This document shows positions 2,340 to 56,338 of a stretch of 64,000 bases of DNA, piece after piece. The position numbers were made by a program, and so were the translations under genes. The stretch covers positions 2,253,494 to 2,317,493 of the forward strand of contig NC_066553.1 in NCBI RefSeq assembly GCF_024679095.1, written 5' to 3'. Below the pieces are notes generated by a model. The model ran no database searches. It was given only the letters and a program-made list of their open reading frames with translations, and was not told where the DNA came from. This DNA is from Eriocheir sinensis (Eukaryota; Arthropoda; Malacostraca; Decapoda; Varunidae). How positions within the stretch are numbered: position 1 is the first letter of the stretch; every line of letters starts with the position of its first letter.

Positions 2340-3175
2340 TAACACAATATGAGTGACATTTAATTTTCGGCATTTAATGAGTGACATTTAATTTTCGGAA
2401 TATTTTAAACTTCAAATTTTTCATCGTTGTTTCGTTATATATATTTTCTTAGTCAAAGATTCTAAATAACACACGAACATTAGGCTAACTCAACAATATG
2501 CCTGACATTTAATTTTCGGCACCACGGAATATTTTAAACGTCAAATTCTCATCGTTGTTTCGTTATATATATTTTCGTAGTCAAAGATTCTAAATAACAC
2601 ACAAACATTAGGCTAACTCTTAACAATATGACCGACATTTAATTTTCGGCACCACGGAATATTTTAAACGTCCAATTCTCTGCTTTGTTTCGTTATATAT
2701 ATTTTCGTAGTCAAAGATTCTAAATAACACACAAACATTAGGCTAACTCTTAACAATATGACCGACATTTAATTTTCGGCACCACGGAATATTTTAAACG
2801 TCCAATTCTCATCGTTGTTTCGTTATATATATTTTCTTAGTCAAAGATTCTAAATAACACACGAACATTAGGCTAACTCTTAACAATATGACCGACATTT
2901 AATTTTCGGCACCACGGAATATTTTAAACGTTAATTCTCAGCGTTGTTTCGTTATATATATTTTCGTGGTCAAAGATTCTAAATAACACACAAACATTAG
3001 GCTAACTCTAAACAATATGACCGACATTTAATTTTCGGCACCACGGAATATTTTAAACGTTAATTCTCAACGTTGTTTCGTTATATATATTTTCTTAGTC
3101 AAAGATTCTAAATAACACACGAACATTAAGCTAACACGTAACACAGTATGACCTGACAAGGAATTTTCGGCGCCA
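2340..3175. repeat. 130-bp AT-rich tandem repeat
   Basis: About six and a half copies of a 129-130-bp unit. The marker CCGACATTTAATTTTCGG (or near variant) starts at about 2501, 2631, 2761, 2891 and 3020, with partial or diverged copies at both ends (about 2351 and 3149). Each unit also contains TTCGTTATATATATTTTC and ATTAGGCTAACTC. Neighbouring units differ by only a few bases, so the array is young. No coding potential. Confidence 0.95.
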
Positions 3176-3946
3176 CAAAATATTCTTAACATCAAATTCT
3201 CAACGCCGAGTTTTCGTATATTTTCGTAGCGCTGCGCAGCTGTGGGTGACTAACGAGGGCGGGGTGAACACAAATTAACGAGTCTCAGGTGGTCATTAGG
3301 CAGGAGTGCACCTGGGCCGAGGGCGAGGTTTGATAAAGGTGAAGGCAGTATGCAATGACCCGCCCTGTGTGTGTGAAGCCAGTGAGTCCAGGGAGTGGCC
3401 ATATTGGTAAGGGGAGGTTGGGGGTTGGGTTGGGGTTCTGAGACGTTTCCGGCTCTGATAATCGCTTCCAATGCCCACAGTGAAGACAAATTCGGTTCTC
3501 ATGAGTGATTTTTAGGTTAGTATGCATAAGCTTTGTCCAACTACCTATAGAAATGACATGTATAAACTCGTAACTATATAAGGAGTTTTCATAGTGTCTC
3601 GTGTTCAGTGCGAGAGCCCTTACGAACTTCCTTCCTGTGGTGTTAGACTTAAAAATTGCACTTCGTATAATGCGGGTTTTCCTATGAGCTCCCACCTTTG
3701 CCCTTACTAGTATGGCCGCCACGTGCCTCACTGGCTTCACTCCCCACTGAGCCGCGCGGGGTGAAGTGCATACCGCCTCTGTCTTTATTTACCCTCCTTG
3801 ACCTGAGCGGTGTAGAAAGCGTGGTATTTTAAGGTCCAGTGTAGGTGACTAATGGTGATGAGGATAGGTGGTGGTGGATGAGTGGATGAAGGGTATTGGA
3901 TAGATGTGGAAGAGTTGGAAAGTGGAGGAGGAGGATGGCTCAGTGG

Positions 3947-7389: not shown

Positions 7390-8830
7390 GCGCAAAATAT
7401 TATATCGCTTGTAAGTTATGTGGAAGAACATTGGAAAACTAGAAAATAACACCAGATAACTTCTTTTTTTAACATTAACGGAAGCACCTCAAGGTCAAAA
7501 AAAATAGGAATTGCCCATAATATTAGGCTATATACATCATCGCTTGTCAGTTATGTGGAAAACATTGGAAAACTTGAAAATAACACCAGAATAGACCAGA
7601 TAACTTCTTTTTTTAACATTAACGGAAGCAACTCAAGGGCAAAAAAAAAAAGAAATTGCCCATAATATTAGGCTATATACATCATCGCTTGTCAGTTATG
7701 TGGAAGAACATTGGAAAACTAGAAAATAACACCAGAATACACCAGTTAACTTCTTTTTTTAACATTAACGGAAGCAACTCAAGGTAAAAAAAAAAAAAAG
7801 AAATTGCCCATAATATTAGGCTATATACATCATCGCTTGTCAGTTATGTGGAAAAACTATGAAAAACTTGAAAATAACACCAGAATAGACCAGATAACTT
7901 CTTTTTTTAACATTAACGGAAGCAGCTCAAGGTCAAAAAAATAGGAATTGCCCATAATATTAGGCTATATACATCATCGCTTGTCAGTTATGTGGAAGAA
8001 CATTGGAAAACTAGAAAATAACACCAGAATAGACCAGATAACTTCTTTTTTTAACATTAACGGAAGCAACTCAAGGTCAAAAAAATAGGAATTGCCCATA
8101 ATATTAGGCTATATACATCATCGCTTGTCAGTTATGTGGAAGAACATTGGAAAACTAGAAAATAACACCAGAATAGACCAGATAACTTCTTTTTTTAACA
8201 TTAACGGAAGCAACTCAAGGTAAAAAAAAAAAGAAATTGCCCATAATATTAGGCTATATACATCATCGCTTGTCAGTTATGTGGAAGAACATTGAAAAAC
8301 TAGAAAATAACACCAGAATAGACCAGATAACTTCTTTTTTTAACATTAACGGAAGCAACTCAAGGTCAAAAAAATAGGAATTGCCCATAATATTAGGCTA
8401 TATACATCATCGCTTGTCAGTTATGTGGAAGAACATTGGAAAACTAGAAAATAACACCAGAATAGACCAGATAACTTCTTTTTTTAACATTAACGGAAGC
8501 AACTCAAGGTAAAAAAAAAAAGAAATTGCCCATAATATTAGGCTATATACATCATCGCTTGTCAGTTATGTGGAAGAACATTGGAAAACTTGAAAATAAC
8601 ACCAGAATAGACCAGATAACTTATTTTTTTTACATTAACGGAAGCAACTCAAGGTAAAAAAAAAAAGGAATTGCCCATAATATCATATACATCGTCGCTT
8701 GTCAGTTAAGTGGAAGAATTATGGAAAACTATAAAATAACACCAGAATAGACCACATAACGTCATTTAACATTGAACTTCTTTTTTTAACATTAACGAAA
8801 GCAGCTCAAGGGCAAAAAAAAATGTCGTAA
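7390..8830. repeat. 145-bp tandem repeat
   Basis: Nine to ten copies of a 144-148-bp unit. The marker AACATTAACGGAAGC begins at about 7471, 7615, 7761, 7909, 8053, 8197, 8342, 8486 and 8630. Each unit includes a stretch like the GCAACTCAAGG core of dispersed family E, so a fragment of that element appears to have been captured and amplified. Confidence 0.93.
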
Positions 8831-11389: not shown

Positions 11390-13165
11390 GGATGTTAGTA
11401 GGCTAGTGGTTTAAGAAAGACTAAGATTACCCTAGCATCGAGAACTTTAAATTTCCCTACATGGTGTAAAATGAAGATTATCGTAACATTAAGAACTTTG
11501 AGCTGGTGTTGGTAGTTAGAACTTTAAGCTGGTGTTAGTAGGCTAGTGGTGTAAGAAAGACTAAGATTACTCTGACATCGAGAACTTTAAATTTCCCTAC
11601 ATGGTGTAAAATGAAGATTATCGTAACATTAAGAACTTTGAGCTGATGTTGGTAGTTAGAACTTTAAGCTGGTGTTAGTAGGCTAGTGGTGTAAGAAAGA
11701 CTAAGATTACCCTAACATCGAGAACTTTAAATTTCCCTACATGGTGTAAGAAAAATGAAGATTATCGTAACATTAAGAACTTTGAGCTTGTGTTAGTAGT
11801 TAGAACTTTAAGCTGGTGTTAGTAGGCTAGTGGTGTAAGAAAGACTAAGATTACCCTAACATCGAGAACTTTAAATTTCCCTACATGGTGTAAGAAAAAT
11901 GAAGATTATCGTAACATTAAGAACTTTGAGTTGGTGTTAGTAGTTAGAACTTTAAGCTGGTGTTAGTAGGCTAATGGTTTAAGAAAGACTAAGATTACCC
12001 TAGCATTGAGAACTTTAAATTTCCCTACATGGTGTAAGAAAAATGAAGATTATCGTAACATTAAGAACTTTGAGTTGGTGTTAGTAGTTAGAACTTTAAG
12101 CTGGTGTTAGTAGGCTAATGGTTTAAGAAAGACTAAGATTACCCTAACATCGAGAACTTTAAATTTCCCTACATGGTGTAAGAAAAATGAAGATTATCGT
12201 AACATTAAGAACTTTGAGCTGGTGTTGGTAGTTAGAACTTTAAGCTGGTGTTAGTAGGCTAATGGTTTAAGAAAGACTAAGATTACTCTAACATCGAGAA
12301 CTTTAAATTTCCCTACATGGTGTAAGAAAAATGAAGATTATCGTAACATTAAGAACTTTAAGCTGGTGTTAGTAGGCTAATGGTTTAAGAAAGACTAAGA
12401 TTACCCTTACATCGAGAACTTTAAATTTCCCTACATGGTGTAAGAAAAATGAAGATTATCGTAACATTAAGAACTTTAAGCTGGTGTTAGTAGGCTAGTG
12501 GTGTAAGAAAGACTAAGATTACCCTTACATCGAGAACTTTAAATTTCCCTACATGGTGTAAGAAAAATGAAGATTATCGTAACATTAAGAACTTTGAGCT
12601 GGTGTTGGTAGTTAGAACTTTGAGCTTGTGTTAGTAGGCTAATGGTTTAAGAAAGACTTAAGATTACTCTGACATCGAGAACTTTAAATTTCCCTACATG
12701 GTGTAAGAAAAATGAAGATTATCGTAACATTAAGAACTTTAAGCTGGTGTTAGTAGGCTAATGGTTTAAGAAAGACTAAGATTACCCTTACATCGAGAAC
12801 TTTAAATTTCCCTACATGGTGTAAGAAAAATGAAGATTATCGTAACATTAAGAACTTTAAGCTGGTGTTAGTAGGCTAGTGGTGTAAGAAAGACTAAGAT
12901 TACCCTTACATCGAGAACTTTAAATTTCCCTACATGGTGTAAGAAAAATGAAGATTATCGTAACATTAAGAACTTTGAGCTGGTGTTGGTAGTTAGAACT
13001 TTGAGCTTGTGTTAGTAGGCTAATGGTTTAAGAAAGACTAAGATTACTCTGACATCGAGAACTTTAAATTTCCCTACATGGTGTAAGAAAAATGAAGATT
13101 ATCGTAACATTAAGAACTTTAAGCTGGTGTTAGTAGTTAGAACTTTGAGCTTGTGTTAGTAGGCT
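11390..13165. repeat. 118/145-bp satellite with higher-order structure
   Basis: Thirteen units, marked by CCCTACATGG at 11455, 11595, 11735, 11879, 12023, 12167, 12311, 12429, 12547, 12692, 12810, 12928 and 13072. Spacings are 140, 140, 144, 144, 144, 144, 118, 118, 145, 118, 118, 144. The 118-bp form lacks about 26 bp near GGTAGTTAGAACTTTG. The last six spacings form a 381-bp higher-order unit present twice. No coding potential. Confidence 0.95.
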
Positions 13166-13294
13166 ATTGGTGCAAGAGAGATTTAAGATTACCGAAGCAT
13201 TGAGAACCGAGAATGTCTAATACTGGTAGTGACTATGGCGGTTCTCTAGGATGAAAGAAGGAAGTATATGCGAAGGATGATTGATGCTGACCGT

Positions 13295-13990: not shown

Positions 13991-14180
13991 TTGCTCGCCA
14001 GAATGTCCCATCAATATTTTTACAGCCGTTTCTTTGCACTTTTCTTTTTCTTTTCTTCTTTATATTTGTTTTAGAAAGAGTTTGGTGGTACTCGAACATT
14101 CGGTACTACCTGGAAATAGAGGAATATTTATAACTATCTGCAGAGTTTGATTTTCATTTGTTTATTTTTATTTTAATCTT

Positions 14181-14720
14181 GTTTATTATATCTTCATTCG
14201 TCTATAGGAGCTGTACTTTGCGGAGTTTTTTTTATATCGTTTTGCTGCATCCTTTACGGTAAAAAATATATATAATGAAAGTCCGTTATTTAAAGAATTT
14301 GCGATTTCACTTGTCCCCTAATGTCGCAGGGTGGGCAAGGCGACGCGCCCCCTGGTGTATGTTTATTATATCTTCATTCGTCTATAGGAGCTGTACTTTG
14401 CGGGGTTTTTTTTATATCGTTTTGCTGCATCCTTTACGGTAAAAAATATGTATAATAAAAGTCCGTTATTTAAAGAATTTGCGATTTCACTTGTCCCCTA
14501 ATGTCGCAGGGTGGGCAAGGCGACGCGCTCCCTGGTGTATGTTTATTATATCTTCATTCGTCTATAGGAGCTGTACTTTGCGTTCTTTTTTTATATCGTT
14601 TTGCTGCATCCTTTACGGTAAAAAATATATATAATGAAAGTCCGTTATTTAAAGAATTTGCGATTTCACTTGTCCCCTAATGTCGCAGGGTGGGCAAGGC
14701 GACGCGCTCCCTGGTGTATG
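14181..14720. repeat. 180-bp tandem repeat, three copies
   Basis: GTTTATTATATCTTCATTCG begins at 14181, 14361 and 14541, an exact 180-bp period with few differences. Each unit ends GGCAAGGCGACGCGC, which matches the end of the dispersed element seen at 30290-30430. Confidence 0.95.
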
Positions 14721-14734
14721 CCCCCATTGATTGA

Positions 14735-14965
14735 TCTCCATTTTGACCTTTGGAAATAGGTTATGTGCGATCCAGAAGCATCTAAGAATACATTTAGCGT
14801 GGTTTTTATAGGAGTTTTGGGCACTCCTAGGGGTAGTTTAATGACCCTGGTGGTAGTTTGACCCCTCATCTTTACCATAAACCTAAAGATCACTCATAAG
14901 AACCTGATTCATCTTTGTGACCTTCGGAAATAGTTGATTTGAGTGGCAGAAGCGTCTCTTATAAT
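14735..14965 (+). mobile_element. MITE family A copy, diverged
   Basis: Carries AGGGGTAGTTTAATGACCCT and the flanking family A sequence, with more substitutions than the 9.7-10.4 kb copies. Confidence 0.6.
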
Positions 14966-14974
14966 TTCCCTCCT

Positions 14975-15390
14975 TCCTCCACTTCCTGTCTTTCCTTCCA
15001 TCCTTCATTCCTTTCCTTCCTATGCCTGCTATCCCCCCCCCGTATACTTCCCCTCCTTCCCCCACTTCCTATCCTCCCCCCATTCTTCCTTCCTTTCCTT
15101 CCTATGCCTGCTATCCCCCCCTCCCTATACTTTCCCTCCTTCCCTCCATTCTTCCTTCCCTTCCTATGCCTGCTATCCCCCCCCCCCCCCCTCCTATACT
15201 TTCCCTCCTTCCCTCCATTCTTCCTTCATTTCCTTCCTATGCCTCCTATCCCCCCCCCCCTATGCTTTCCCTCCTTCCATCCATTCTTCCTTCATTTCCT
15301 CCCTTTGCCTGCTATCCCCCCCCTCCTATACTTTCCCTCCTTCCCTCCATTCTTCCTTCCCTTCCCGTCCTTACCCAACCTCCACTCATG
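14975..15390. repeat. Pyrimidine-rich minisatellite upstream of coding exon 1
   Basis: About six copies of a roughly 60-65-bp unit (CCTATGCCTGCTATCCCC and TTTCCCTCCTTCC). It ends about 80 bp before the acceptor of the first coding exon of the sphingomyelin synthase gene, so it lies inside its presumed upstream intron. Confidence 0.85.
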
Positions 15391-15472
15391 AGTTCCCCTT
15401 TACCCCACCCTCCCTTCATCCACCTTTAGTCAGAATACGAACTTAACACTCTTCTCTCCCCCTCTTTGCAGG

Positions 15473-18400
15473 ATGGTGTTGGGCGGAGGAAGTGAGGGCG
15501 GGCGGTATGGGTCAGTAGGGGAGAGCGGCGGCCTGATGGGGGAGTTCCAGTACTGCGGGAGTGGCGGCAACAGCAGGAGCGGCACCAGCAGCAGCTCCAG
15601 CAGCGTGGTGGACGAGGCCGACCACTGCCACATGACACACGACGTCTACCAGCGCCAGCCCCTGCTCGCTAACCACGACTCCTACATCAACGCCAACGGG
15701 TAGGTCCTCTCGCAGCCACGCCCCCTTCCCTTGGTTTGTGGTAATGGATATTTTTTGAGTTCTGATCTTCCTCTTCTCCTCCTGTCCTCTCTCAACCACG
15801 CCCCCTTCCCCTCCCTACATCAACGCCAACGGGTAGGTCCTCTCGCAGCCACGCCCCCTTCCCTTGGTTTGTGGTAATGGATATTTTTTGAGTTCTGATC
15901 TTCCTCTTCTCCTCCTTTCCTCACTCAACCACGCCCCATTCCCCGCCCTACATCAACGCCAACGGGTAGGTCCTCTCGCAGCCACGCCCCCTTCCCTTGG
16001 TTTGTGGTAATGGATAATTCTTGAGTTTTAATCTTCCTCTTCTCCTCCTGTCCTCTCTCAACCACGCCCCCTTCCCCTCCCTACATCAGCGCCAACGGGT
16101 AGGTCCTCTCGCAGCCACGCCCCCTTCTCCTCGTTTGTGGTAATGGATAATTCTTGAGTTCTGATCTTCCTCTTCTCCTCCTGTCCTCTCTCAACCACGC
16201 CCCCTTCCCCTCCCTACATCAGCGCCAACGGGTAGGTCCTCTCGCAGCCACGCCCCCTTCCCTTGGTTTGTGGTAATGGATATTTTTTGAGTTCTGATCT
16301 TCCTCTTCTCCTCCTGTCCTCTCCCAACCCCGCCCCCTTCCCCTCCCTGCATCAACGCCAACGGGTAGGTCCTCTCGCAGCCACGCCCCCTTCCCTTGGT
16401 TTGTGGTAATGGATATCTCTTGAGTTCTAATCTTCCTCTTCTCCTCCTGTCCTCTCTCAACCCCGCCCCCTTCCCCTCCCTGCATCAACGCCAACGGGTA
16501 GGTCCTCTCGCAGCCACGCCCCCTTCCCTTGGTTTGTGGTAATGGATAATTCTTGAGTTCTAATCTTCCTCTTCTCCTCCTGTCCTCTCTCAACCCCGCC
16601 CCCTTCCCCTCCCTGCATCAACGCCAACGGGTAGGTCCTCTTGCAGCCACGCCCCCTTCCCTTGGTTTGTGGTAATGGATAATTCTTGAGTTCTGATCTT
16701 CCTCTTCTCCTCCTGTCCTCTCCCAACCCCGCCCCCTTCCCCTCCCTGCATCAACGCCAACGGGTAGGTCCTCTCGCAGCCACGCCCCCTTCCCTTGGTT
16801 TGTGATAATGGATAATTCTTGAGTTAAGATCTTCCTCTCCTCCTCCTCTCCTCTCCCAACCCCGCCCCCTTCCCCTCGTGTGTGATAAAGGTTAATGGAC
16901 CGTATTGGCTATACAGGCAGCGCCACATGTGGCCACTCAACTCTAAGCTGTCCTTTCCATAAAGTTCAAGTTATAGACTAGAGTGCGTCTGAGGCTGTCT
17001 CCGGGATACACGGCCATAGTGCCGCCATCGCTCCAAGCCGATGATAGCACACATTTCACTCCTTCCCGATTTCAGTTTTTCTCCATGTCAAACAGTAGAG
17101 TCAGGAAATCGGGTAGGAGTAAATTGTGTGCAGTCGTTGGCTTGGAGCGGTGGCGGTAACCAAGGCCTTGTATCCTGGAGGCAGCCTCAGACGTACTCTA
17201 CTTGAATACTATGGAAATACTGCTTTGACACTTCACCGACTGGCCACGTGTGGTGCTGCCTGTATAGCCATTACGGTCCATTCTTGAGTAGTGATCTTCC
17301 TCTTCTTCTCCTGTCCTCTCCCAACCCCTTCCCCTTCCCCTCGTGTGTGATAATGGATAATTCTTGAGTAGTGATCTCCCTCATCTTCTGTCCTCTCCCA
17401 ACCCCGCCCCCTTCCCCTCGTGTGTGATAATGGATAATTCTTGAGTAGTGATCTCCCTCATCTTCTCCTGTCCTCTCCTAACCCCTTCCCCTTCCCCTCG
17501 TGTGTGATAATGGATAATTCTTGAGTAGTGATCTCCCTCATCTTCTCCTGTCCTCTCCCAACCCCGCCCCCTTCCCCTCGTGTGTGATAATGGATAATTC
17601 TTGAGTAGTGATCTTCCTCATCTTCTCCTGTCCTCTCCCAACCCCGCCCCCTTCCCCTCGTGTGTGATAATGGATAATTCTTGAGTAGTGATCTTCCTCT
17701 TCTTCTGTCCTCTCCCAACCCCGCCCCCTTCCCCTCGTGTGTGATAATGGATAATTCTTGAGTAGTGATCTTCCTCATCTTCTCCTGTCCTCTCCCAACC
17801 CCTTCCCCTTCCCCTCGTGTGTGATAATGGATAATTCTTGAGTAGTGATCTCCCTCCTCCTCCCCTATCAATGACAACGGGTAGGTTCTCTCGTGTCCCC
17901 TTACACTGCTCGTCATTTACCCTTCCCCTCCCCATTTCTCGTCTCTTCTAATGGGTCTGTGTAGCTATAGTTCCTCCCTTATCGATGTCAATGGGTGTGT
18001 CATTTGCCAACTCCTTCCGTTAATAATGATACCTCAGACTACTAAACCGTATACATAATAAAACTTAATCTTTAGCGCCCTATCTACCCCTTCCCTCCTG
18101 TTACTGATAAGACTGAAGCCGTAACAATACCATATACCCTTTTTGAGCGCTTTGTTTCTTATCATTGTCATCTGGTATGCCCTCTGCCTGCCTACCCCTT
18201 CCTTCCCCTATTGATGGTAATGGGTAGTTTTTATGTCCTTTTCTTTAATTTCCTTTCCTTCCCATCCCATCCCTTCCCTTCCCTTCCCTTTCCTTTCCTT
18301 CCCTTCCCATGCCATCCCTTTCCTTTCCTTCCCTTCCCATCCCATCCCCTATATTTCCTTTCCTTCCCATTCCATCCCTGTTTTTATTTCCCTCACCTTG

Positions 18401-21337
18401 CAGTGCTATAAGACCTGTTTATCTGTAAGGGTGGGAAGGTGGATTTTATTAACTAGTGTGTGTGTGTTTTCAGGGTGAGTAAGGATGGCAGCGGCAGTGG
18501 CATGGTGAAGATTCCCATTCCGACGCCTCACAGAGATGAACCAAGATTCCCGAAGGAGAAATTCAAAACCCTCCTTGGTGAGTTTTTATATAGTGTCTGT
18601 TTCTTTCATTTCTATCCCATCTCTGTTGCTTTCCTTTCCTTCCCATCACATTCATTTCCTTTCCTTTCTGTTCCTTTCCTTTCCATCCCATCTCATGTAT
18701 TTCCTTTCTGTTCCTTTCCTTTCCATCCCATCTCATTTATATCCTTTCCTTTCTGTTCCTTTCCTTTCCATCCCATCTCATTTATTTCCTTTCCTTTCTG
18801 TTCCTTCCCAACCCATCCCATTATACCTCCACCACTGTTTTCCAATGACTGTTAACATTGATTTACGCGTTTCAGCCTTCCTCTTCCTCTTCTCCAACTG
18901 GATCCTCACCACGGCGTCGCTCGCCCTCACCCACGAGCGGGTCCCCAACTACAAGCCGCTGCCCGATGTCACTCTAGATGCCATCACACCGCAGGATTGG
19001 GGCCTCGACGTCTCCGAGATTATCATCATGATCTCCATGTACCTGTGTGTCATGGTCTTGTTATTCCACAAACACAGGTGAGTGGCTGTGTGGCAATGCC
19101 TGTGTCAATAGAAATGTCTGTTGTAAATAATTTGTTATGCTATATCTATCTCTATGCCTCTGACCTGTTCACTACTGGAGATCCCCTTGAGAGACCAGCT
19201 GCAGAAGTCTCTAGTGATTTTGTTGATGCACCATTTCTTCATTCACAGCTCTCCCCATGCTTTTAAAGTATTAGGGCGATATTACGAGACACTCGCTTTT
19301 CACATTACATATTTCTAAAGGTCAAAGAGGAGAACAATCGGGCTCTAATGAGTGTTTCGAAAGGTTCATGGTACAGAGGAAGGGTCACACTATCACCAGG
19401 GTCATAGAACTACTACTGGAAATGCCCACAACTCTTACGAACGCCTTGTCAAATGAGTGTTCTTGGGCGATGATGTCTTGTAATACGACCCGTAGTATTC
19501 AGACACTGCTTCGATGGTACAGTTGTAGGGCCGTTTTTGCAATCATGGTTCCGTCAAGAGTTAGGTGATGTTTCAGAAGTGTCTCGCATGCAAAAAAGTT
19601 GCCTTACTCACGGTTCTCTCACTTTTCAGATGGATTCTCTTCCGGCGGGTATTTTTAATGATGGGTCTGCTGTATTTCTACCGCTCCATCACCATGTACG
19701 TGACGGTCCTCCCCGTCGCCAACCCCAACTACCCTTGTGCCCCCAAAGCAAACTACACCAGTCCAGTGTTAGTCGCCAAGCGGGTGATCCAGCTGCTCTC
19801 AGGGTTCGGCTTGTCCATCAACGGGAAGCACACCTTTTGCGGCGACTACATCTACTCCGGCCACACAGTCTGCCTTGTCCTGGCGTACTTGGTTGTCAGA
19901 GAATGTGAGTTGAGAAAGGAGAAGCATAGCATAATAGATCTGAAAACTGACACACACACCGTAACTCTTGCATAACTCTTTTTACACAACATCTACTCCG
20001 GCCACACAGTCTGCCTTGTCCTGGCGTACTTGGTTGTCAGAGAATGTGAGTTGAGAAAGGAGAAGCATAGCATAATAGATTTGAAAACTGACACACAACG
20101 TAACTCTTGCATAACTCTTTCTACACTACATCTACTCCGGCCACTAAGTCTTGCCTTGTCCTGGCGTACTTGGTTGTCAGAGATTGTGAGTCGAGAGAAA
20201 ACTAGCATAATCTGGATCTAGATCTGGATATTAATGCGCAGGGCATCTGTACAGGTGCATAACACGCATATTTATGTTGGGTGTTGCGGGGACGGGGGAG
20301 GCGAGTGTGCAGGGGAGGGAAGTGAATCAAGTGTAATTGTTAGTGTTGGTGTGTTGTGGTGACAAATGAGTGTGTATTTCTTTTCTGAATGAGTCTATAA
20401 ATATTTTTAAGTGGCTAATTCTTGATTAATTATTTTGTTTCAACTTAGCTTAACATAACATCATGGGAAATAAGTGTCTATTTGAGGTGTTGAGCAAAGA
20501 GTGATCCAAGCGTTGCGTTGACAGACACGCCGCGGCGCTGGTGGCTGCTGCACTGGTGCTTCGCCCTGCTGGCAGTGACGGGCGTGGTGATGGTCCTCAT
20601 CGCCCGGGGCCACTACACTGTGGACTGCATCATTGCGTACTACATCACCACTCGGATATTTTACATCTACCACACACTTGCAAACAATGCAAATCTCAAG
20701 GTGAGAAATGTTATAGATCTTCAGTTGAGCTTACATGTCTAGTCACTGAGCTCACTATCCACACACACACACGCACACACACACTGGTGTCAATGATCAG
20801 ACTTTTTGGGAGTCGGGGAATGAAAAAACAAGTTGAGCAATACTGAGCCAAAAGTTTGTTCCTCTTATCTGAAACTTGAAGGACTTGAAGTAGAACCTAA
20901 CTTACAGAGATGAAGCAGAAACCATTTATACATGAACTTCTAGTTATATACTTTTTACTTAGTAGTCATATGATGCACGGCCTTAAAAGATGCAACCAAC
21001 AGTTAGTCATGTGATCAGTTTAGCTTCAAACAATACCTCACCTTTTCAAACAGGATGCACATTTGTCATTTGAACAAGAACATATATTTTGTTCTGAATT
21101 TATGCATTCTTCTCATTCTGTTGTGTTTCACTGTACTAATCTATTTCTCTTCTCTTATTTTCATACTGGTTTTCCTTCCAGGAGAGTGGTCCAAACAACT
21201 TCTTTGAGCGGTTATGGTGGTATCCGCTATTCTGGCGGTTCGAGCGTAACGTGCAGGGCGTCGTGCCCCGGCACTATGAGTGGCCGCTGCCCTGGCCCAG
21301 GAGGTGGAGCAGCAAAAACCCACAAAGAACCTCCTAG
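15473..21337 (+). CDS. SGMS2-like: Sphingomyelin synthase (phosphatidylcholine:ceramide cholinephosphotransferase), six coding exons
   Basis: Transfers phosphocholine from phosphatidylcholine to ceramide, giving sphingomyelin and diacylglycerol, in Golgi or plasma membrane. Coding exons: 15473-15699, 18474-18577, 18876-19077, 19630-19904, 20525-20700, 21182-21337 (TAG). All junctions are GT-AG; the total is 1140 nt, 379 aa. All four family motifs are visible: D1-like KPLPD (137-141), D2 RR-x8-Y-x2-R-x6-T (183-203), D3 CGDYIYSGHT (248-257), and D4 HYTVD with the following Y, F and YH (299-319). The catalytic triad is His256, His299 and Asp303; D4 has Cys304 where Val is usual. Hydrophobic segments fit a six-pass protein. 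There is no SAM domain, so the layout is like SGMS2 rather than SGMS1 or SMSr. The ATG is one base after the acceptor at 15470-15471, so an untranslated exon lies upstream. The Ser/Gly-rich N-terminus (residues 1-85) is variable sequence. Exact subtype and substrate preference are inferred. Confidence 0.93.
15680..16870 (+). repeat. 133-bp minisatellite copying the exon-1 donor site
   Basis: The last roughly 20 nt of coding exon 1 and its donor (AACGG/GTAGGT) recur with an exact 133-bp period. GT of the donor is at 15700 (the real exon end), 15833, 15966, 16099, 16232, 16365, 16498, 16631 and 16764. The rest of the unit is C-rich (CCACGCCCCCTTCCC, GATCTTCCTCTTCTCCTCC). Decayed relatives continue to the far end of the intron (17881, about 17995, about 18220). 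Minus-strand Arg/Gly-rich open frames over the array are artefacts. Confidence 0.95.
16894..17282. mobile_element. Fold-back (palindromic) element inside SMS intron 1
   Basis: About 390 bp whose two halves are imperfect reverse complements over nearly the whole length. The ends are AATGGACCGTATTGGCTATA and the complement of TATAGCCATTACGGTCCATT. Internal arm pairs include CTCCAAGCCGA with the complement of TTGGCTTGGAG. It separates the 133-bp array from the 80-bp array. No open frame; a MITE or fold-back transposon. Confidence 0.88.
17283..17880. repeat. 80-bp C-rich tandem repeat in SMS intron 1
   Basis: About eight copies, 77-80 bp, marked by GTGTGTGATAATGGATAATT at about 17343, 17420, 17500, 17580, 17660, 17737 and 17817. 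The unit is related to half of the 133-bp unit. Right after it a decayed donor-like copy (ACAACGG/GTAGGT) lies at 17881. Confidence 0.93.
18235..18830. repeat. TTCCC/TTTCC pyrimidine repeats flanking coding exon 2
   Basis: TTCCTTTCCTTCCCATCCC-type runs lie on both sides of the 104-bp exon (18474-18577). The downstream block (18600-18825) has a roughly 55-bp period. The small exon is thus embedded in polypyrimidine sequence, which may provide strong 3' splice signals. Confidence 0.8.
19268..19510 (-). mobile_element. MITE family A copy in SMS intron 3
   Basis: Reverse-complement orientation. It starts GGGCGATATTACGAGACAC and contains CTACTACTGGAAATGCCCAC and the family A core. It lies between coding exons 3 and 4. 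Confidence 0.7.
19847..20205 (+). repeat. Tandem copies of the end of SMS exon 4
   Basis: The last roughly 56 bp of coding exon 4 (encoding IYSGHT and VVRE), its donor and about 85 bp of intron occur three times: real 19848-19988, copy 2 from 19989, copy 3 from about 20127. Copy 2 keeps the SGHT codons and the GTGAGT donor intact. Copy 3 has a stop right after the SGH codons but still keeps GTGAGT. Neither copy has an acceptor AG in front, so they look like dead pieces carrying live donors. Confidence 0.9.
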
Positions 21338-22595
21338 TCATTTACTATGTATTGATAAGCTCACCTTTGTTGCATTTTAAACACTGAAACACTTAAGTCA
21401 CTGCTCATTCAAAAGAAACTCCATTGGGCTATCTCAGACGACAAATGTTCAACCCCAATGTATGATCACCAGGCTCAGTGAGTGTGAGGAGCAAGTGGCA
21501 GGCTTGGAATGACGAGGAATGTGCATCACTGCCCCTTCGGAACATGAGGGTTTAGCAACAAGTGGAAAGTTGTAACCAGAATCCCCAAAGAACAGGAACT
21601 GTGGATAGTGAATGGCTCACCGGCAGCTTTTTAGTTTTCCTATCAAGTGTGTGTGGAGAGCAGCACTTGTGGCGAACGGTGAACCTTGCCGTGAAAAGTA
21701 AAGTGTGTAGCCGAGTTCGTGTTTTTGGGTCTCTGCGAGTGACCTGCGGAAAATGACATCTTCCACACACAACACACTAGTCCGTAACAGCCACTCCTGT
21801 AGATCCGATGAAACCTCTGGAGAAATTTTTAACCATATAGGCATAGAATAGGTATATATATATATGTATATACATATATTTTTTAGAAGAATCATACACC
21901 CCCTATGTTAGTCTTCTCTAATGTCTATAGATATCATTATCATTTTTCATATCAGGTGTTTTATACCTCATTAAACAGTGTAAAGATAGTGTCCAGGAGT
22001 GCAAGACAAAAGTGCCAATGAGAAGTGCATTTTGTAACTGCCCTGACCACCACCAACACGCCGCGCAGCCCGTGGTGGGCGGCGGCACGCAGGGACGACT
22101 CACCTAATTGTAAGCTAGTTGATTTTCCACCCAGAACTGAATTATATATGTGATAAACTTTTTTTTTTTTTTTTTTTTTCCATTGTACAAAAGTATCAAT
22201 ATAAGGATCTTGTAAATTTTAACTTGAAAATAGGTCATAATACAAACAGAAAGGTTATAACAGCAGGCAGTGATTGGAGGAAAGAAGCTTTGTAAGTTTG
22301 TACTCGGGCATGAGAAAATATTTTTGTAATAATTTCTTCTCTGCTGACGGCTGATGAGTGAATGGAGAGTAATGGATACTACTACTATGATTTCAGTATT
22401 TGATCACATCTTCCCACATACATATTTTATAGAAGTGGATGGCCTTAAGACATTCATTGAGACCCTTCCTTCGATGACCTGGGTTTGGTAGTCGGTAACA
22501 GTGTCATCCACTACGTCTGTACTTGTGTCAGTTCTAGTCACTGTCTACAGAGCATTGCCAGCCAGCCAGGCCCCCAGAGCACCTGTGGCTGTCAC
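21338..22595 (+). other. Presumed 3' UTR of sphingomyelin synthase
   Basis: Unique sequence after the TAG stop at 21335-21337, with no repeat until an (AT/TATA)-rich spot at 21850-21885 and a T-run at 22160-22180. No canonical AATAAA is visible close to the stop. Later candidates are 23365-23370 (GTCTAATAAAG) and about 26089 (GAATAAAGG). The true transcript end cannot be settled from sequence. Confidence 0.4.
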
Positions 22596-33989: not shown

Positions 33990-35375
<1,386 letters not shown>

Positions 35376-37223: not shown

Positions 37224-38131
37224 ATGGCTCTCCCTCGCCCGCTCACCGCCCTGTTGCTCCTGCTGGCGTGCGCTCTAGCCTCGGCCCAAGGTTAGTCATG
37301 TAGTAAAGGTAAAGTTGAGGCATACACTTACGCTGCCCCAAGCCTCGGTGCTCATCTCCGTCACCTTGGTCTAGTTACAACAGCTCCTATTCGACCTCTC
37401 TACACTAACGATTCATTCCATTTTCTGTTTTTGTATTTTTTCTTTTTTACAACAAAGGAGACAGCTCAAGGGCACACAAAACGGAAACAATAAAAAAAGC
37501 CCGCTACTCGCTGCTCCTAAAAAAATGAATCCATAGAGGTACACACAAAGTACCAGTTTCTTGTGTAAATTATCCGTTTTTCTTTATCAGCAGAGAAGGC
37601 AGCTCGGTCAAAAATAAAAGAAAATGGTTTGTAATGTGCATCTGTCTTTCTGCTGCCGATGACACGCACACATAATCATTTCTTGGGCTAACTTAGGGCC
37701 GCTTTCATAGCCGTTTTGTCTGTCTTGATCGTTACCAATGGCGGCGATCGACGCTATAGTTTTCCACGCGAAACTGGCCTATGGGGTAGTGGCGGCTGCA
37801 GAGGAAGCGAGAGGTGTTGAGAGTGTGTGGTAAGGTGCGTGGCTAGGCTAACCCCGCAGCCGCCACTACCCCATCGGCCAGTTTTACGTGGAAATACTAT
37901 AGCGTCGATCGCCGCCATTGGTAACGATCAAAACAAACAAAACGATTGGGAAAGCGGCCCTAAGCTACGCAACCTTGGAAACCGAAGAACGTGAACAGCT
38001 GGATAGTATGAGTTTTTGTTAGATTACCTGACTTACTTGTAGTATTTGATAGTGGTGGGAGAGGAGAGTAAGGAAGGGAGAGAGGATTGAAGGGAAAGTA
38101 TATACCTACGTACCCGTTCCAGCACCCCTTT

Positions 38132-38162
<31 letters not shown>

Positions 38163-40104
38163 CTGTAATAATGTTGTGCTGACTCACCCCCCGTCAGGAA
38201 GTAGCTGCCCCGAGCCCTTCTCCCTGATGGGCTCTCGCTGCGTGTTCGTCACCCACAACTCCGACGCCTCAGGCAGCCCCGCCGTCAGCTGGTTCGAGGC
38301 CCGCATGCTGTGTGCCGAGAAGGTCGACGGCACCAGCTGGACCGCCGACCTCGTCTCCAACTACAACGCGTCCTTCCAGAGGCTCCTGACCAAGCACATC
38401 AAGGCCTACCCAGGTGACGCGGCGCCTCTTTCACACCTGTGGGGGGAATGACTTTTTTTTTTTTTTTTTGCTCTGGGAATATATAGGAAAAGCGAATAGA
38501 TAGCAATTATGAGAAGTTAGTTAGCACCAAGTTGGGTAGAAACGTTAAAGAAATTGCGAAGTCAGTCTCACTAAACTTATGCTTTATCGTAACGGATTGT
38601 GATGGAAAAACGAAGGTGCTTAAGAAGAACACACGTGCGCACATACAGAGAGGGTACGGCTAGGTATTTTTTCCTTTAAAAGAGCTTCAAAAGAAAAGTA
38701 AATATATTTTTGGAAGTGTTATGCATCTAGGAAGTGCAGCCAATACTCCCTACCTCTAAAACCTTTGGAAGATAACGTAAAAAATATATTGGCGCAAACG
38801 CTTGTTTTCGGAACGACTCCCTTCCCCCCCCACCCCACCCCCAAAAAAAGGAGACTAAGTGCCAGTTTTACAGTCCAATACAGGAAGTTTGTGAGCTCCC
38901 CAACCAAACACAAAATACGACGAAAATTCCTTGTTTGGCGTTGAAATAGAAAGGAGAAAATTTTAGGAAACCACACATCAGGAAATCTCTTTATTAGTAC
39001 CTGGTTTTGAGTGGAAATAACGGATCATTGAGGAGAATATAGCTTGGTTTGGGCGCTTACAATGACTGTGTTGGACTATCGAACTGGCCCGAAAACTTAG
39101 AAGACGTGTGTCGCTGGCCGTCCCTGCCCCTCCCGCCACGCTGCCCCTACACACGTACACCTTCCCTTCCAGACGTGGAGCGCTACCACAACTACCACGT
39201 CGGCGCCGCGTTCGTGAAAGATGCTTGGCTATGGCTGGACGACACACCCATCAACAAAATGGATTACATGTAAGTAGGGACCAGTATTGACCTGAGGAGT
39301 GTAGGACATTTTCCCCTCCGACGTTTTCCCCCGCGGACATTTTCACCTCCGAACCCTTTCCCCCGCGGACATTTTCCCCTCCGAACCCTTTCCTCCGCGG
39401 ACATTTTCCCTCTGACAAATTCCCCCGTGAACATATTTCCCCCCTCGATAAAAGTTACTCAGACTCAGACTCAAAGAAACTTGAGCGCTTAATATACAGA
39501 TAAATGAGAAAGAGGGGAAAATATCCAGGGAAGAATTTGAAAGGGGGAAAAGATCCAGAGAAAATGTCAGGCATCCGTGCTTCTAACAACGCTTGCTTGG
39601 TGGAAACCCTTTAAATCACAGCTCAGGAACACACCAGCACATATGAAAGGTTACCCCCACAGTTTCAGTACTGAGGAACACACCAACACATATGAAAGGT
39701 TACCCCCACAGTTTCAGCACTCGGGAACACATCAACACATATGAAGAGTTTACCCCCACAGTTTCAGCACTCGGGAACACATCAACACATATGAAGAGTT
39801 TACCCCCACAGTTTCAGCACTCGGGAACACATCAACACAAATGAAGAGTTTACCCCCACAGTTTCAGCACTCAGGAACCCAACAACACAAAGCACATTCG
39901 TTGATCAATTGTGTCGTTAATGAAGTGACCTAACTTGCATCACTGTCTTTCAGCTGGCACATCTTTTCACCCCCGACTGGTCTTGGGGGCTTCACGACGG
40001 CCGGGGTCAGCTTCATAATGCCGAACCAGAGACTAGTGCTCGCCCCCAGCTCCTACTCGAAGTCTCAGCATTACGTGTGTGAGGCCAAGCCCGCGGCAGC
40101 CTAG
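37224..40104 (+). CDS. Secreted C-type-lectin-like protein 1, four exons
   Basis: Exons 37224-37290, 38198-38413, 39173-39269 and 39954-40104 (TAG) join with phases 1, 1, 2 into 531 nt, 176 aa. Residues 1-22 form a clear signal peptide (MALPRPLTALLLLLACALASAQ region, cut near AQ/G). The rest is one C-type-lectin fold: the N-terminal pair Cys26/Cys37, the helix W54-FEA-R-x2-C61, the VGA strand (104-106), the W113-L-W115 strand, and the final HYVCEA with Cys169 pairing with Cys61. The EPN or QPD sugar tripeptide, the WND calcium motif and the two loop cysteines are absent, so classical calcium-dependent sugar binding is unlikely. One N-glycosylation site is at Asn79. Arthropod lectin-like proteins of this kind usually act in haemolymph recognition; that role is inferred. 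It is paralogous to the gene at 45406. Confidence 0.88.
37440..37530 (+). mobile_element. Dispersed E copy in lectin 1 intron 1
   Basis: ACAACAAAGGAGACAGCTCA, then GCCCGCTACTCGCTGCTCCT. A weak second copy follows at 37580-37620. Confidence 0.75.
37693..37963. mobile_element. Fold-back MITE in lectin 1 intron 1
   Basis: Ends TTAGGGCCGCTTTC and GAAAGCGGCCCTAA. Long arms pair almost throughout (e.g. GTTACCAATGGCGGCGATCG with CGATCGCCGCCATTGGTAAC). About 270 bp with a short central spacer and no open frame. Confidence 0.92.
38414..39172. other. Lectin 1 intron 2
   Basis: Unique intronic sequence with a T-run at about 38453-38470 and a C-rich spot at 38825-38845. No repeat family or exon recognised. 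Confidence 0.7.
39300..39900. repeat. Two minisatellites in lectin 1 intron 3
   Basis: A roughly 31-bp C-rich unit (CCGCGGACATTTTCCCCTCC) spans 39305-39445. A 50-bp unit (GGAACACATCAACACATATG) spans 39624-39895 with exact 50-bp steps at 39721, 39771 and 39821. Confidence 0.9.
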
Positions 40105-45405: not shown

Positions 45406-48400
45406 ATGGGCTTCAAGGTTCACGTGGCTTTCCTTCTTTTCGCGGCGTTCCTCGGGGCCTCGGCTTACGGTGAGTGACTCTCCTCTCTCCCTCCCAACGA
45501 AGGAGTGGATTGACACTAATCAAGCACGAGGCAGCAAGGACCATGAACTACTGTTAAATTAATACAGGTAGTCCTCGAGCTAAAAGAGTGACGAATCATT
45601 TCCGTTATTTGATGTGAGGTGTGGCGTCAATACTGGTGAGTCTGATATGAAAGGAACTGGAGAAAGAGTTGAAACAGTGAGGAGTTGAGTTATCTGAAGA
45701 GGAGTTGCATTAGTGCTGGTGAGTTTGATATTAAAGAAACTAAGAAAAAAAGGAAAAATAAGAGGTAAGTCTGATATAAAAGTGACTGGGAAAAAGAGTT
45801 GAAACAGTGAGGAGTTGAGTTATTTGAAGAGGAGTTGCGTTAATACTGGTGAGTTTGATATTAAAGAAACTATGAAGGGCGGGAAGCAGAAAAAGGAAAA
45901 ATAAAAGGTAAGTCTGATATAAAAGGAACTGGGAAAAAGAGCTGAAACAGTGACGAGTTAATTCATATGAAGAGAGGCGTTGCGATAGAGCTGATAAGTT
46001 TGATATTAAGGAACCCTCGTGTATACGGATTGACTGCCTGTGGTTTGAATGATATATTTCAAGGTTTAAATAGGAAGATTAACAGATAACGGAACGCTTA
46101 CTGAATGCTTCATTAATGGGGGTTAACATGATAGTGTCGGTTTTGGCTTGTATTTTCTGTCAGTTTTAGGGATATCGAAGTACGTGATCCTAGAGCCACA
46201 GAAAAGGAGAGTTTGACTAATTTCATCATAGGCGTCATGTTTATACCAAAAGATCATCGCGGAATTCAAGTTGATGCTGATACAAGTGTTTTTTTATGTG
46301 TTTTAGGTAGCGTCAGGATCTCGGAGAATTACCTAGACTCCTAGAACAGTAAGAAACACTATTGTATCATCATCAGTTTGAATTTCGCGCTGCTCTTTAC
46401 GTAACAAGGCACCTGTGATGAAGTTGGCCAAACTCTCATGTTCTATGGCTCTGCGTGATCCTAAACGTGATGTGATCATCGGCTATACTTCATAAACGTG
46501 CTTCAAATTGCCTACTAACGTTTTTCTCTGCCCCAAGACCACCTGGAGCAGGAACACTGTCTTTAACTAGCTTTGGGGTGTCTATCAACATATTCACTGC
46601 CCCCAGACCGCATGAAGCAAGGGAACTGTCTGTAACTAGCTCCGGATTGCTTATCAATGTTTTTCACTGCCCTCAGATCGCCTGGAGCAAGGGGACTGTC
46701 CGAATGAGTTCCTGTCGTATCCTGGGGGCCGGTGTCTGCACGTGTCCACCGCCTACGTGAGCGGGGACCCCAAGGTGTACCAGTGGGAGCCAGCGCGGGA
46801 GGCGTGTCTCAACATGACCACGGAGGGCTGGACCGTCGACCTCGCCTTCTCCCTGGACGAGGAAGTGATGCAGCGGTTCAGCGAGTTCATCGTCAACGAA
46901 GTGCCAAGTGAGCCGGGTTGTATAAGGGTTTTCTTCTTTTTCTTTTTCTTGTCTGATTTATATTTGATTTCTATAGCGGGTTGTTGTCTTTCTGCCAGTT
47001 TTCAAGGGAGAACGGGCGGCCCTTCAAAACAAGCAATGTAGCACTGAAGGCGATATAGTAGACTACCTATCAAGTAATGCACACTTTCCGTCATTATTTC
47101 CTACATAACTCATTCACATAGGCATAGTAAATAATAATCACATAGAAATATCTTCTACAGTAACTTCATACAGGTAGGAATCATTGTATTTAGGAATAAG
47201 TTTTGTATCCTTGGCTTGGAGGGATGGGCGTGTACGCTCGGCGGTACAGCGGGTGACGGCCAGCGCGGCAGCCGACGCGCCCGTTCCTCCTTATTCCTTA
47301 ATTAATACAATGATTCCTACCTGTATAAAGTTACTGTAGAAGACACTTTTTGTGACTATATTTACTACGTGTTATTCGTGGGCGCCGAGAGGGACACGCC
47401 ATCACGAAGAATTTCACACCATATTCCTGTTTTTCCCAGCGTTTGTTTACATGAATTCGAGCTTGAACTTGACCCTGATGTCGAAGGCGTTTTTTTATTT
47501 CATTAGTGTACAGTGACTTTAGCTTAGGTTATGTGTGTGTCTGCCAATCTGTCTATCGGTTCCTCCTTCGCCAGGCATGAAGTACTACGTGTTCTTCGTG
47601 GGCGCCGAGAGAGACACGCCATCGGGCCATTGGGAGTGGGTGGACGGCCAGCTTGTTGACCCTCTCTCCTACGTGTGAGTGTGCCTAACCAAACCTAACT
47701 TAAACTAGCTTAACTAACCTAATAACCAAACCAAGCCTAACCTTAACTATTAACCTAATCTAAACTTGCCTACCCTAAACTAGCTTAATCTAACCTAACC
47801 TCACCTAAACTAGCCTAATCTAACCTAATAATCAAACCAAGCCTAACCTTAACTATTAACCTAACCTAAACTTGCCTACCCTAAACTAGCCTAATCTAAC
47901 CTAACCTCACCTCACCTAAACTAGCCTAATCTAATAACCAAACCAAGCCTAACCTTAACCATTAACCTAACCTAAACTTGCCTACCTTAAACTAGCCTAA
48001 TCTAACCTAACCTCACCTAAACTAGCTTAACTAACCTACTAACCAAACCAAGCCTAACCTTAACTATTAACCTAACCTAAACTAGCCTAATCTAACCTAA
48101 CCTCACCTAAACTAGCTTAACTAACCTACTAACCAAACCAAACCTAACCTTAACTATTAACCTAATCTAAACTAGCCTAATCTAACCTAACCTCACTTAA
48201 ACTAGCCTAGTCTAAGATAACCAAACTTAGCCTAACCTACCTATTAACCTAACCTAAACTTGCCTACCTTAAACTAGCCTAATATAACCTAACCTCACCT
48301 AAACTAGCTTAACTAACCTACTAACCAAACCAAACCTAACCTTAACTATTAACCTAACCTAAACTAGCCTAATCTAACCTAACCTCACCTAAACTAGCCT

Positions 48401-54628: not shown

Positions 54629-56338
54629 TTAAGACAAAGTGACATTCGAGTTAAACGGAAACACATTTACATAAGTCAAATACAAGGAACTGTCGCCGCC
54701 AGCACCACCGCCGTCCTCGAGTGTGGCAACGTCGAGGTGAGAGGCAGCGGTGCCGTGAACAGTGGCGGGGGTGCCTCCAACCTCCACCAGCCGTGGCTGC
54801 GGCCTACCAGGTGAAGCAGGTCGTGGCTGCAAGGCCTGCCCGTTGTGCTGCGGCTGCGGCCAAGTAATAGGAGCAGGCTGTGGCTGCAGGGTCTGCCCGT
54901 TGTGCTGCGGCCAAGTAATAGGAGCAGGCTGTGGCTGCAGGGTCTGCCCGTTGTGCTGCGGCCAAGTAATAGGAGCAGGCTGTGGCTGCAGGGTCTGCCC
55001 GTTGTGCTGCGGCCAAGTAATAGGAGCAGGCTGTGGCTGCAGGGTCTGCCCGTTGTGCTGCGGCCAAGTAATAGGAGCAGGCTGTGGCTGCAGGGTCTGC
55101 CCGTTGTGCTGCGGCCAAGTAATAGGAGCAGGCTGTGGCTGCAGGGTCTGCCCGTTGTGCTGCGGCTGCGGAGGAGAAATGGAAGTAGCCCGCGGCCACA
55201 AGACCTGCCCGTCGTGCTGTTGCTGCGGCCAACCATATGAAGCAGGCCGTGGTTGCAAGACCTGCCCGTCGTGCTGTGGATGCGGCCAACCATATGAGGC
55301 AGGCCGTGGTTGCAAGACCTGCCCGTCGTGCTGTAGATGCGGCCAACCATATGAAGCAGGCCGCGGCTGCAAGGCTCGCCCGCTGTGCTGTGGCGGCGCA
55401 ACGCCGTCACCTCTCCAGCACTTCGCCGCGCGGGGCCGCTGCTTGCTGCGGGACCTCCTGACGGGCCGAAGGCAGTCACTGACGTGGCTGGTGCTTGCGG
55501 CCACACACCGCTGCTGCCCTGACTCCCACACCACCTCCAAGCCCTCGTGCAGCTCGGGGGGCGGCCGGGGGCTCCAGGGCTGCCGCTCAGGGCCATCGTA
55601 TTCGTGGCCGCCACCGTTGTCCTCGAACAGAGACAAGTCGAAGTCAAAGGCAGAGGCGAAGTGAGCACTCATCCTCGTGTCGCCAAGAAGCTCCGCCAGC
55701 TCCTGTTCTGCACTGGCCGCTTCGTTATCCTTCATCTCCACCCACGGCGTGACAGGCCGAGGCTGCAAGGCCTGCCCGCTGTGCTGTGCCTGCGGCTGAC
55801 CAATAGAAACAGGCCGAGACTGTAAGGCCTGCCCGCTGTGCTGTGGCTGCGGCTGACCAATAGAAACAGGCCGAGGCTGCAAGTCCTGACCGCTATGCTG
55901 TGGCTGCGGCTGACCAATAGAAACAGGCCGAGACTGTAAGGCCTGCCCGCTGTGCTGTGGCTGCGGGTGACCAATAGAAACAGGCCAAGACTGTAAGGCC
56001 TGCCGGTTGAGCTGTGGCTGGGGCCGAGCAGCTGGGGGCTGCGAGGCTTGCCCTTTGTACTTTGACTGCCGCAGATAGCGAAGAATAGCGGCGGACCGTC
56101 GCTGCAGCATTCGTGCATTCACACCATGTTCTGGCAGAGGAAGAGGAACCTTGGCTCCAAGCTCCACCAGCCTCCGTGCTGCGGCGGCCGGGTCGTTGCG
56201 CAGTGGCTGGGGTCTACCAGTTGAAGCAGGTCGTGGCTGCAAGTCCTGCCCATTGTGCTGCGGCTGCGGAGAAGTGGAAGCAGCCTCCACCTCGGAGAAG
56301 GGACGCTTGGAGGACTGAACGGCGTCGGGGTGATCCAT
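54629..56338 (-). CDS. Unrecognised Pro/Gln-rich repeat protein 1
   Basis: 569 aa in one coding exon. The exon starts at an acceptor (TTTTCAG/GTC) three bases before the ATG (56338), and an untranslated exon lies at about 57273-57430. N-terminus MDHPDAVQSSKRPFSEVEA, then an AKVPLPLPEHGVNAR block (62-76). Residues 105-195 hold about five copies of a 19-residue repeat (PQPQHSGQALQSRPVSIGQ). Residues 200-312 are a non-repeat acidic-to-basic region (SLFEDNGGG, ELHEGLEVVWESGQQRCVA, then Arg-rich RRSRSKQRPRAAK). 315-385 holds about four 19-residue copies with ASYGWP, then six 17-residue copies (QHNGQTLQPQPAPITWP) from about 393. Both non-repeat blocks recur in the paralogue in the same frame, which is the main support for coding. 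No signal peptide or membrane segment is seen; probably largely disordered, possibly nuclear. Function unknown. Confidence 0.7.
   Translation of the reverse strand: MDHPDAVQSSKRPFSEVEAASTSPQPQHNGQDLQPRPASTGRPQPLRNDPAAAARRLVELGAKVPLPLPEHGVNARMLQRRSAAILRYLRQSKYKGQASQPPAARPQPQLNRQALQSWPVSIGHPQPQHSGQALQSRPVSIGQPQPQHSGQDLQPRPVSIGQPQPQHSGQALQSRPVSIGQPQAQHSGQALQPRPVTPWVEMKDNEAASAEQELAELLGDTRMSAHFASAFDFDLSLFEDNGGGHEYDGPERQPWSPRPPPELHEGLEVVWESGQQRCVAASTSHVSDCLRPVRRSRSKQRPRAAKCWRGDGVAPPQHSGRALQPRPASYGWPHLQHDGQVLQPRPASYGWPHPQHDGQVLQPRPASYGWPQQQHDGQVLWPRATSISPPQPQHNGQTLQPQPAPITWPQHNGQTLQPQPAPITWPQHNGQTLQPQPAPITWPQHNGQTLQPQPAPITWPQHNGQTLQPQPAPITWPQHNGQTLQPQPAPITWPQPQHNGQALQPRPASPGRPQPRLVEVGGTPATVHGTAASHLDVATLEDGGGAGGDSSLYLTYVNVFPFNSNVTLS
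54840..55380. repeat. In-frame 51-bp and 57-bp repeats within P/Q-rich gene 1
   Basis: Six nearly identical 51-bp units (GTAATAGGAGCAGGCTGTGG on the plus strand) at about 54865-55170, and 57-bp units with CATATGAAGCAGGCCG at about 55230-55375. Every length is a multiple of 3, so the minus frame is kept. It also opens false frames on the plus strand (54762-55664) and in the other minus frames. Confidence 0.9.

Follow-up and report, generated by a model that had tools for sequence, protein, structure and literature searches.

The 3′ end of a coding exon in a sphingomyelin synthase (SMS) gene of Eriocheir sinensis lies inside a tandem array, in which the exon tail and its splice donor are repeated nine times at exactly 133-bp spacing. 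The array is a real, regular structure of ordinary origin. It is probably a minisatellite that happens to span the exon end and that arose passively in a genome rich in repeats; the first donor would normally be the one chosen. In terms of fitness it is most likely neutral or mildly deleterious. It is most useful as a natural experiment on the choice among identical donors, since it sets an arthropod spliceosome before ten donors with the same 9-mer. As the ten are equal in predicted strength, position and context are what differ. All positions given below are those of the window, the whole 64,000-nucleotide stretch of DNA that was analysed.

The array and its intron

Six SMS exons, all on the + strand, were called from the reading frame and splice sites: 15473-15699 (from the ATG), 18474-18577, 18876-19077, 19630-19904, 20525-20700 and 21182-21337 (to the stop). 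The encoded product, of 379 aa, contains a PAP2_C domain (PF14360, 1.1e-23). A protein search with this product gave 498 matches, and among the best 120 of the 498 it was 100% identical over its full length to P0002 from Eriocheir sinensis, which NCBI annotates as phosphatidylcholine:ceramide cholinephosphotransferase 2-like isoform X2. The domain and the full-length homology of the predicted protein identify the gene as SMS. The array-bearing exon occupies 15472-15699 on the + strand, with its ATG at 15473, and matches P0002; repeat unit 1 begins with its last 19 nt. The true donor, GTAGGT in the context CGG/GTAGGT, is at 15700-15705 (+ strand), and the acceptor of the next exon (18474-18577, + strand) closes the array intron. 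P0002 reads ...SYINANG/VSKDG... at this point, corresponding to donor 15700 joined to the acceptor ending at 18473.

The earlier note had called this exon coding exon 1 of SMS. The gene assignment and the presence of the ATG in the exon stand, but a splice acceptor lies upstream of the ATG at 15473 and isoform X2 has 38 additional N-terminal residues, for which no exon was found in the window (tblastn, best E 0.73). The exon with the ATG at 15473 is therefore not the first coding exon in isoform X2. At the other end of the intron, the next exon starts with GGTGAGTAAG (18474-18483), and a donor-like GTGAGT is present one base past the acceptor, an arrangement somewhat like a recursive splice site. 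No Rfam family reached its gathering score in 14000-22000.

Exact matches to AACGGGTAGGT were found ten times on the + strand, at 15695, 15828, 15961, 16094, 16227, 16360, 16493, 16626, 16759 and 17876. When up to one mismatch was allowed there were 11 matches in the window against 0.83 expected, a number reached by 0 of 100 shuffles; the eleventh is on the − strand at 38108. Nine of the ten are in register, with AACGG/GTAGGT recurring at exactly 133-bp intervals and the GT at 15700, 15833, 15966, 16099, 16232, 16365, 16498, 16631 and 16764 (+ strand); the tenth, older copy has its GT at 17881. Tandem Repeat Finder (TRF) delimits a 133-bp repeat at 15681-16877 (+ strand), with 9.0 copies and 96% matches. 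The ninefold recurrence at this spacing is thus confirmed by exact matching and by TRF, and the repeated duplication of the true donor, as first proposed, is supported. In each unit a 19-nt exon tail is followed by 114 intronic nt that start with the donor. Unit 1 starts at 15681 and the exon ends at 15699, so unit 1 holds the true donor of the exon.

Compared in pairs, the nine units diverge by 1.5-9.8% (mean 5.1%), or 2-13 of 133 bases, and several carry private variants. Twenty of the 133 columns are variable, none of them in columns 11-30, where the donor sits, and the donor 9-mer is identical in all nine units. The copies had been described as each retaining about 20 nt of exon sequence; a 19-nt tail is indeed present in each, but in six of the eight copies it is one base off the real exon, with G in column 10 of units 4-5 and G in column 4 of units 6-9. 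These changes would read as Asn-to-Ser (units 4-5) and Tyr-to-Cys (units 6-9). As the final 19 coding nt (15681-15699) lie within the array, exchange between units could carry either variant into the exon. Similarity between units fell weakly with their distance apart (r=0.44, a value reached by 233 of 20000 permutations), and without unit 9 the relation was lost (r=0.18, reached by 3875 of 20000).

Tandem arrays are hard to assemble, and in this single assembly the copy number might have been inflated or deflated. The units differ from one another, several by variants of their own, and at 1.2 kb the array is short for long reads, which makes an artefact very unlikely; the exact copy number is less certain.

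The intron is 2774 bp long. The donor-bearing array makes up its first 1178 bp (42%), so that donor duplications do not form most of the intron as the earlier note had supposed. A further 963 bp consists of a foldback together with about seven 80-bp units that lack a donor. The foldback, which we label MITE-like, is 389 bp long (16894-17282, no strand assigned) and lies inside the repeat, with the 133-bp units on its 5′ side and the 80-bp units on its 3′ side. Its arms, AATGGACC.../...GGTCCATT, are inverted repeats that are 85-91% complementary, and its fold energy is −145 kcal/mol (z −20; 0 of 100 shuffles equally good). The 80-bp units (17280-17856, + strand, 7.3 copies) correspond to the 133-bp unit minus a 53-nt exon-tail/donor segment; in alignment, the 133-bp unit is an 80-bp unit plus an extra 53 nt made up of exon tail, donor and intron start. 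Matching of the 80-bp unit itself as a decayed donor copy (AATGG/ATAATT) gave at best 14/32, against a mean best shuffle score of 16 for 17857-18473, and this derivation was rejected.

The last part of the intron, 617 bp (17857-18473), holds the tenth copy and three weak candidate relics, all on the + strand. The tenth copy (17862-17893, GT 17881) matches at 26 of 32 nt and has an intact donor 9-mer. The weak copies are at 17976-18007 (GT 17995, 19/32), 18156-18187 (GT 18175, 18/32), which the earlier note did not list, and 18205-18236 (GT 18224, 17/32). A 32-nt exon-tail/donor query was scored against 300 dinucleotide shuffles of 17857-18473, and the top shuffle scores for ranks 1, 2 and 3 were 20, 18 and 17 compared with 26, 19 and 18 observed; the copy at 18224 ranks fourth, and the control covers ranks 1-3. 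Taken together the copies at 17995, 18175 and 18224 look like relics, but singly none exceeds the best shuffle score of 20. Among the older copies proposed at 17881, about 17995 and about 18220, the first is therefore clear and the other two are relic-like only as part of the group. Donor copies of differing ages are nevertheless present, as 17881 and the weak relics stand against a near-identical array.

Choice among the donors

The predicted pairing with the 5′ end of U1 is −11.1 kcal/mol alike for the true donor, its eight array copies and 17881. These ten share one 9-mer, and no other GT of this intron agrees with the consensus at 7 or more of 9 positions. Codon 76 is split as GG/G and is followed in the unspliced sequence by an in-frame TAG (15701-15703) that overlaps the first donor, as had been claimed. 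For all nine downstream donors that were tested, eight in the array and the one at 17881, translation would stop at codon 77, in agreement with the prediction that any downstream donor would truncate the protein. Such a stop is what a GTAG donor ordinarily brings when it falls in this phase.

The sequences that precede the donors are different. In the 100 nt before the donor the pyrimidine fraction is 0.52 for the true donor and 0.68-0.71 for the eight array decoys, and TCTT motifs number 0 and 2-3 per decoy, respectively. Pyrimidine-tract binding proteins could silence such decoys. Purine-rich and CAG motifs served as a rough index of exon enhancers. Over the 100 nt that lead up to the true donor the counts are GAAG 0, GGAG 0, CAGCAG 0 and GAGG 1, and by these four motifs no positive exon-enhancer sign was found there. 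Because enhancer-type motifs are nearly absent, an exon context favouring the true donor rests on pyrimidine content and position; their scarcity before the true donor counts against the passive reading.

The absence of variants from the donor was compared with chance. With 20 of 133 columns variable, the donor 9-mer would be free of variants across nine units with p=0.22, and 52% of random placements contain a run of at least 20 invariant columns. The 20-column donor stretch on its own gives p=0.029, a point against the passive reading, with the stretch picked post hoc. Constraint on the donor thus receives no support, its invariance being within chance.

Ten identical 9-mers with no rival GT of 7/9 consensus, and the same early stop from all nine downstream donors tested, favour a rheostat by donor competition, in which decoys would capture part of splicing and yield nonsense transcripts, the number of copies setting SMS output. 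The equal U1 pairing of all decoys and true donor (−11.1 kcal/mol) makes such competition physically possible, and to that extent tells against a passive array. We nonetheless consider a rheostat unlikely: the sequence shows no donor selection beyond chance, the decoys follow more pyrimidine-rich sequence, duplication of this kind is the local norm, and in the F7 precedent, as given in an excerpt of PMC6627357, the first donor alone is used in the normal condition. A fuller form of this idea is that U1 on nine equal donors diverts a copy-number-dependent fraction of transcripts to the early stop, that crab lineages differ accordingly in SMS output, and that the Tyr-to-Cys and Asn-to-Ser variants of the decoys could enter the protein by exchange between units. 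This form is distinctly improbable. The donor competition or tunable switch put forward in the earlier note finds no support in the sequence: the invariance can be had by chance, the annotated protein corresponds to the first donor, the decoys lie behind more pyrimidine, and junction duplications are not commoner than at random positions.

U1 sites can also shield introns from premature polyadenylation, or boost transcription, without splicing. Nine sites of strong predicted pairing within 1.1 kb, in an intron with one AATAAA (18057) and no ATTAAA, might act unspliced in one of these ways. The nine sites stand at least about 1.3 kb upstream of the AATAAA, with the single site at 17881 nearer to it, and this role seems highly improbable.

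Under the preferred reading of a passive array, the first donor would normally be taken, as it alone ends a real exon, with an acceptor 228 nt upstream; the copies are preceded by pyrimidine-rich sequence, and their use would give exons of at least 361 nt. Occasional use of a decoy would produce a transcript that stops at codon 77 and is presumably removed by decay. First-donor use is indicated by one annotated protein and by the reading frame.

Origin and comparison with known systems

The simplest history, and the order of events that we infer, begins with an older 80-bp intronic array. A tandem duplication at its 5′ edge would then have captured one 80-bp unit along with 53 nt across the exon end, of which 19 nt are exon and 34 nt are the start of the intron with its donor; the resulting 133-bp unit would have multiplied to nine.

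Introns can be gained by tandem duplication of AGGT-type sequence and, in the potato case, the duplication crosses an intron-exon boundary (excerpt of PMC4974935). The crab array might on this basis be an early intron gain, as the GTAGGT of each unit contains AGGT, the motif of the classical model in that excerpt, and splice signals are involved in the duplication in both. In contrast to the gains described there, the crab duplication only multiplies an existing donor and no new intron is seen. P0002, a single protein model, has one intron here, from 15700 to 18473, and an intron was evidently present already, since the ORFs of four out of five relatives (P0122, P0124, P0125, P0126) leave the conserved sequence at the same residue and P0123 continues as spliced. 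Intron gain is accordingly extremely improbable.

These five short relatives of the N-terminal part came from 26 candidates. P0122 (76 aa) and P0126 (79 aa) stop exactly at the junction residue, P0124 and P0125 diverge there, and P0123 runs on as if spliced. The ORFs fit an old intron at this site, with contigs that run into it. The exact ending of P0122 at the junction is a point against a passive array; its 76-aa ORF could represent a retained intron, decoy use or plain genomic DNA.

In human coagulation factor VII (F7), the number of repeats affects the level of the protein. Intron 7 of that gene has 37-bp repeats with multiple donors, the most upstream of which is used normally (excerpt of PMC6627357). 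As in F7, the first crab unit holds the true donor and is followed head-to-tail by near-identical copies with intact donors (nine units, 96% matches). The crab unit differs in being 133 bp rather than 37 bp, in including an 80-bp pyrimidine-rich repeat and in belonging to another gene in another phylum. In build, the crab array, as known from its sequence and one annotated protein, matches F7 intron 7 and is filed with the donor-spanning minisatellites. It also resembles ordinary crustacean intronic minisatellites, in that its units are head-to-tail and a few percent divergent and many such arrays occur in the window, but unlike them it takes in a splice site and part of the coding sequence. 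For oriented scanning the primary source is reportedly Borensztajn et al. (2006). Among the open-licence papers listed, no earlier report of this array was found in titles or abstract openings, and the excerpts of PMC10572768 and PMC6783214 contain nothing on the repeats.

Tandem duplication at other junctions

TRF covers 28.9% of the window (124 rows, some overlapping). For the genome, Tandem Repeat Finder sequence was put at 23.9% in one E. sinensis assembly (excerpt of PMC6979310); the repeat total is 61.4% in the same source and 45.30%, with 6.92% microsatellites, in an excerpt of a second genome paper (PMC8062507). Further large minisatellites are found at 2396-3202, 7404-8767, 11393-13193, 34652-35292 and 54815-56024, with TRF periods of about 51 to 381 bp.

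Fifteen exon junctions, 11 from SMS and 4 from a second gene, were examined for a junction-crossing copy within 3 kb. Three of the 15 had one, compared with 107 of 300 random window positions (P=0.16 for three or fewer), and exon junctions as duplication hot spots were rejected. Junction-crossing duplications are to be expected because the tandem-repeat background is this dense. That 3 of 15 junctions in a single 64-kb window are crossed by tandem duplications bears on the tolerance of decoy sites in repeat-rich genomes.

A second donor duplication affects SMS exon 4. At 19845-20209 (+ strand) the exon end, donor and intron start are present three times, spaced 141 and 140 bp, with donors at 19905 (true), 20046 and 20186. 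Copy 2 has 98.75% identity over 80 nt around the junction, and either copy donor would lead to a stop at codon 293, ahead of exon 5. Because copy 2 retains about 57 nt of exon context as well as an identical donor 9-mer, this site is a likelier place for donor competition than the 133-bp array is.

The third case is an acceptor duplication in the second gene, where the acceptor and the first exon nucleotides occur three times at about 69 bp (46524-46700, + strand). The exon starts at 46677, and the two decoy acceptors lie upstream in copies that are 87% and 76% identical. This gene may be lectin-like. In ten ORFs searched, of 65 listed, Pfam at curated cut-offs gave no match, two weak matches being below threshold. 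The two exons of this gene, at about 38198-38413 and 46677-46907, are relatives of one another; when only these two sequences were compared, identity was 31% across 68 positions (E 2e-06).

At the position of the exon-4 donor, the annotated protein P0011 from Cherax quadricarinatus continues beyond the junction (VVRECKLIDQ...) and is without the exon-5 region. This suggests a gene model in which a downstream donor is used and exon 5 is skipped.
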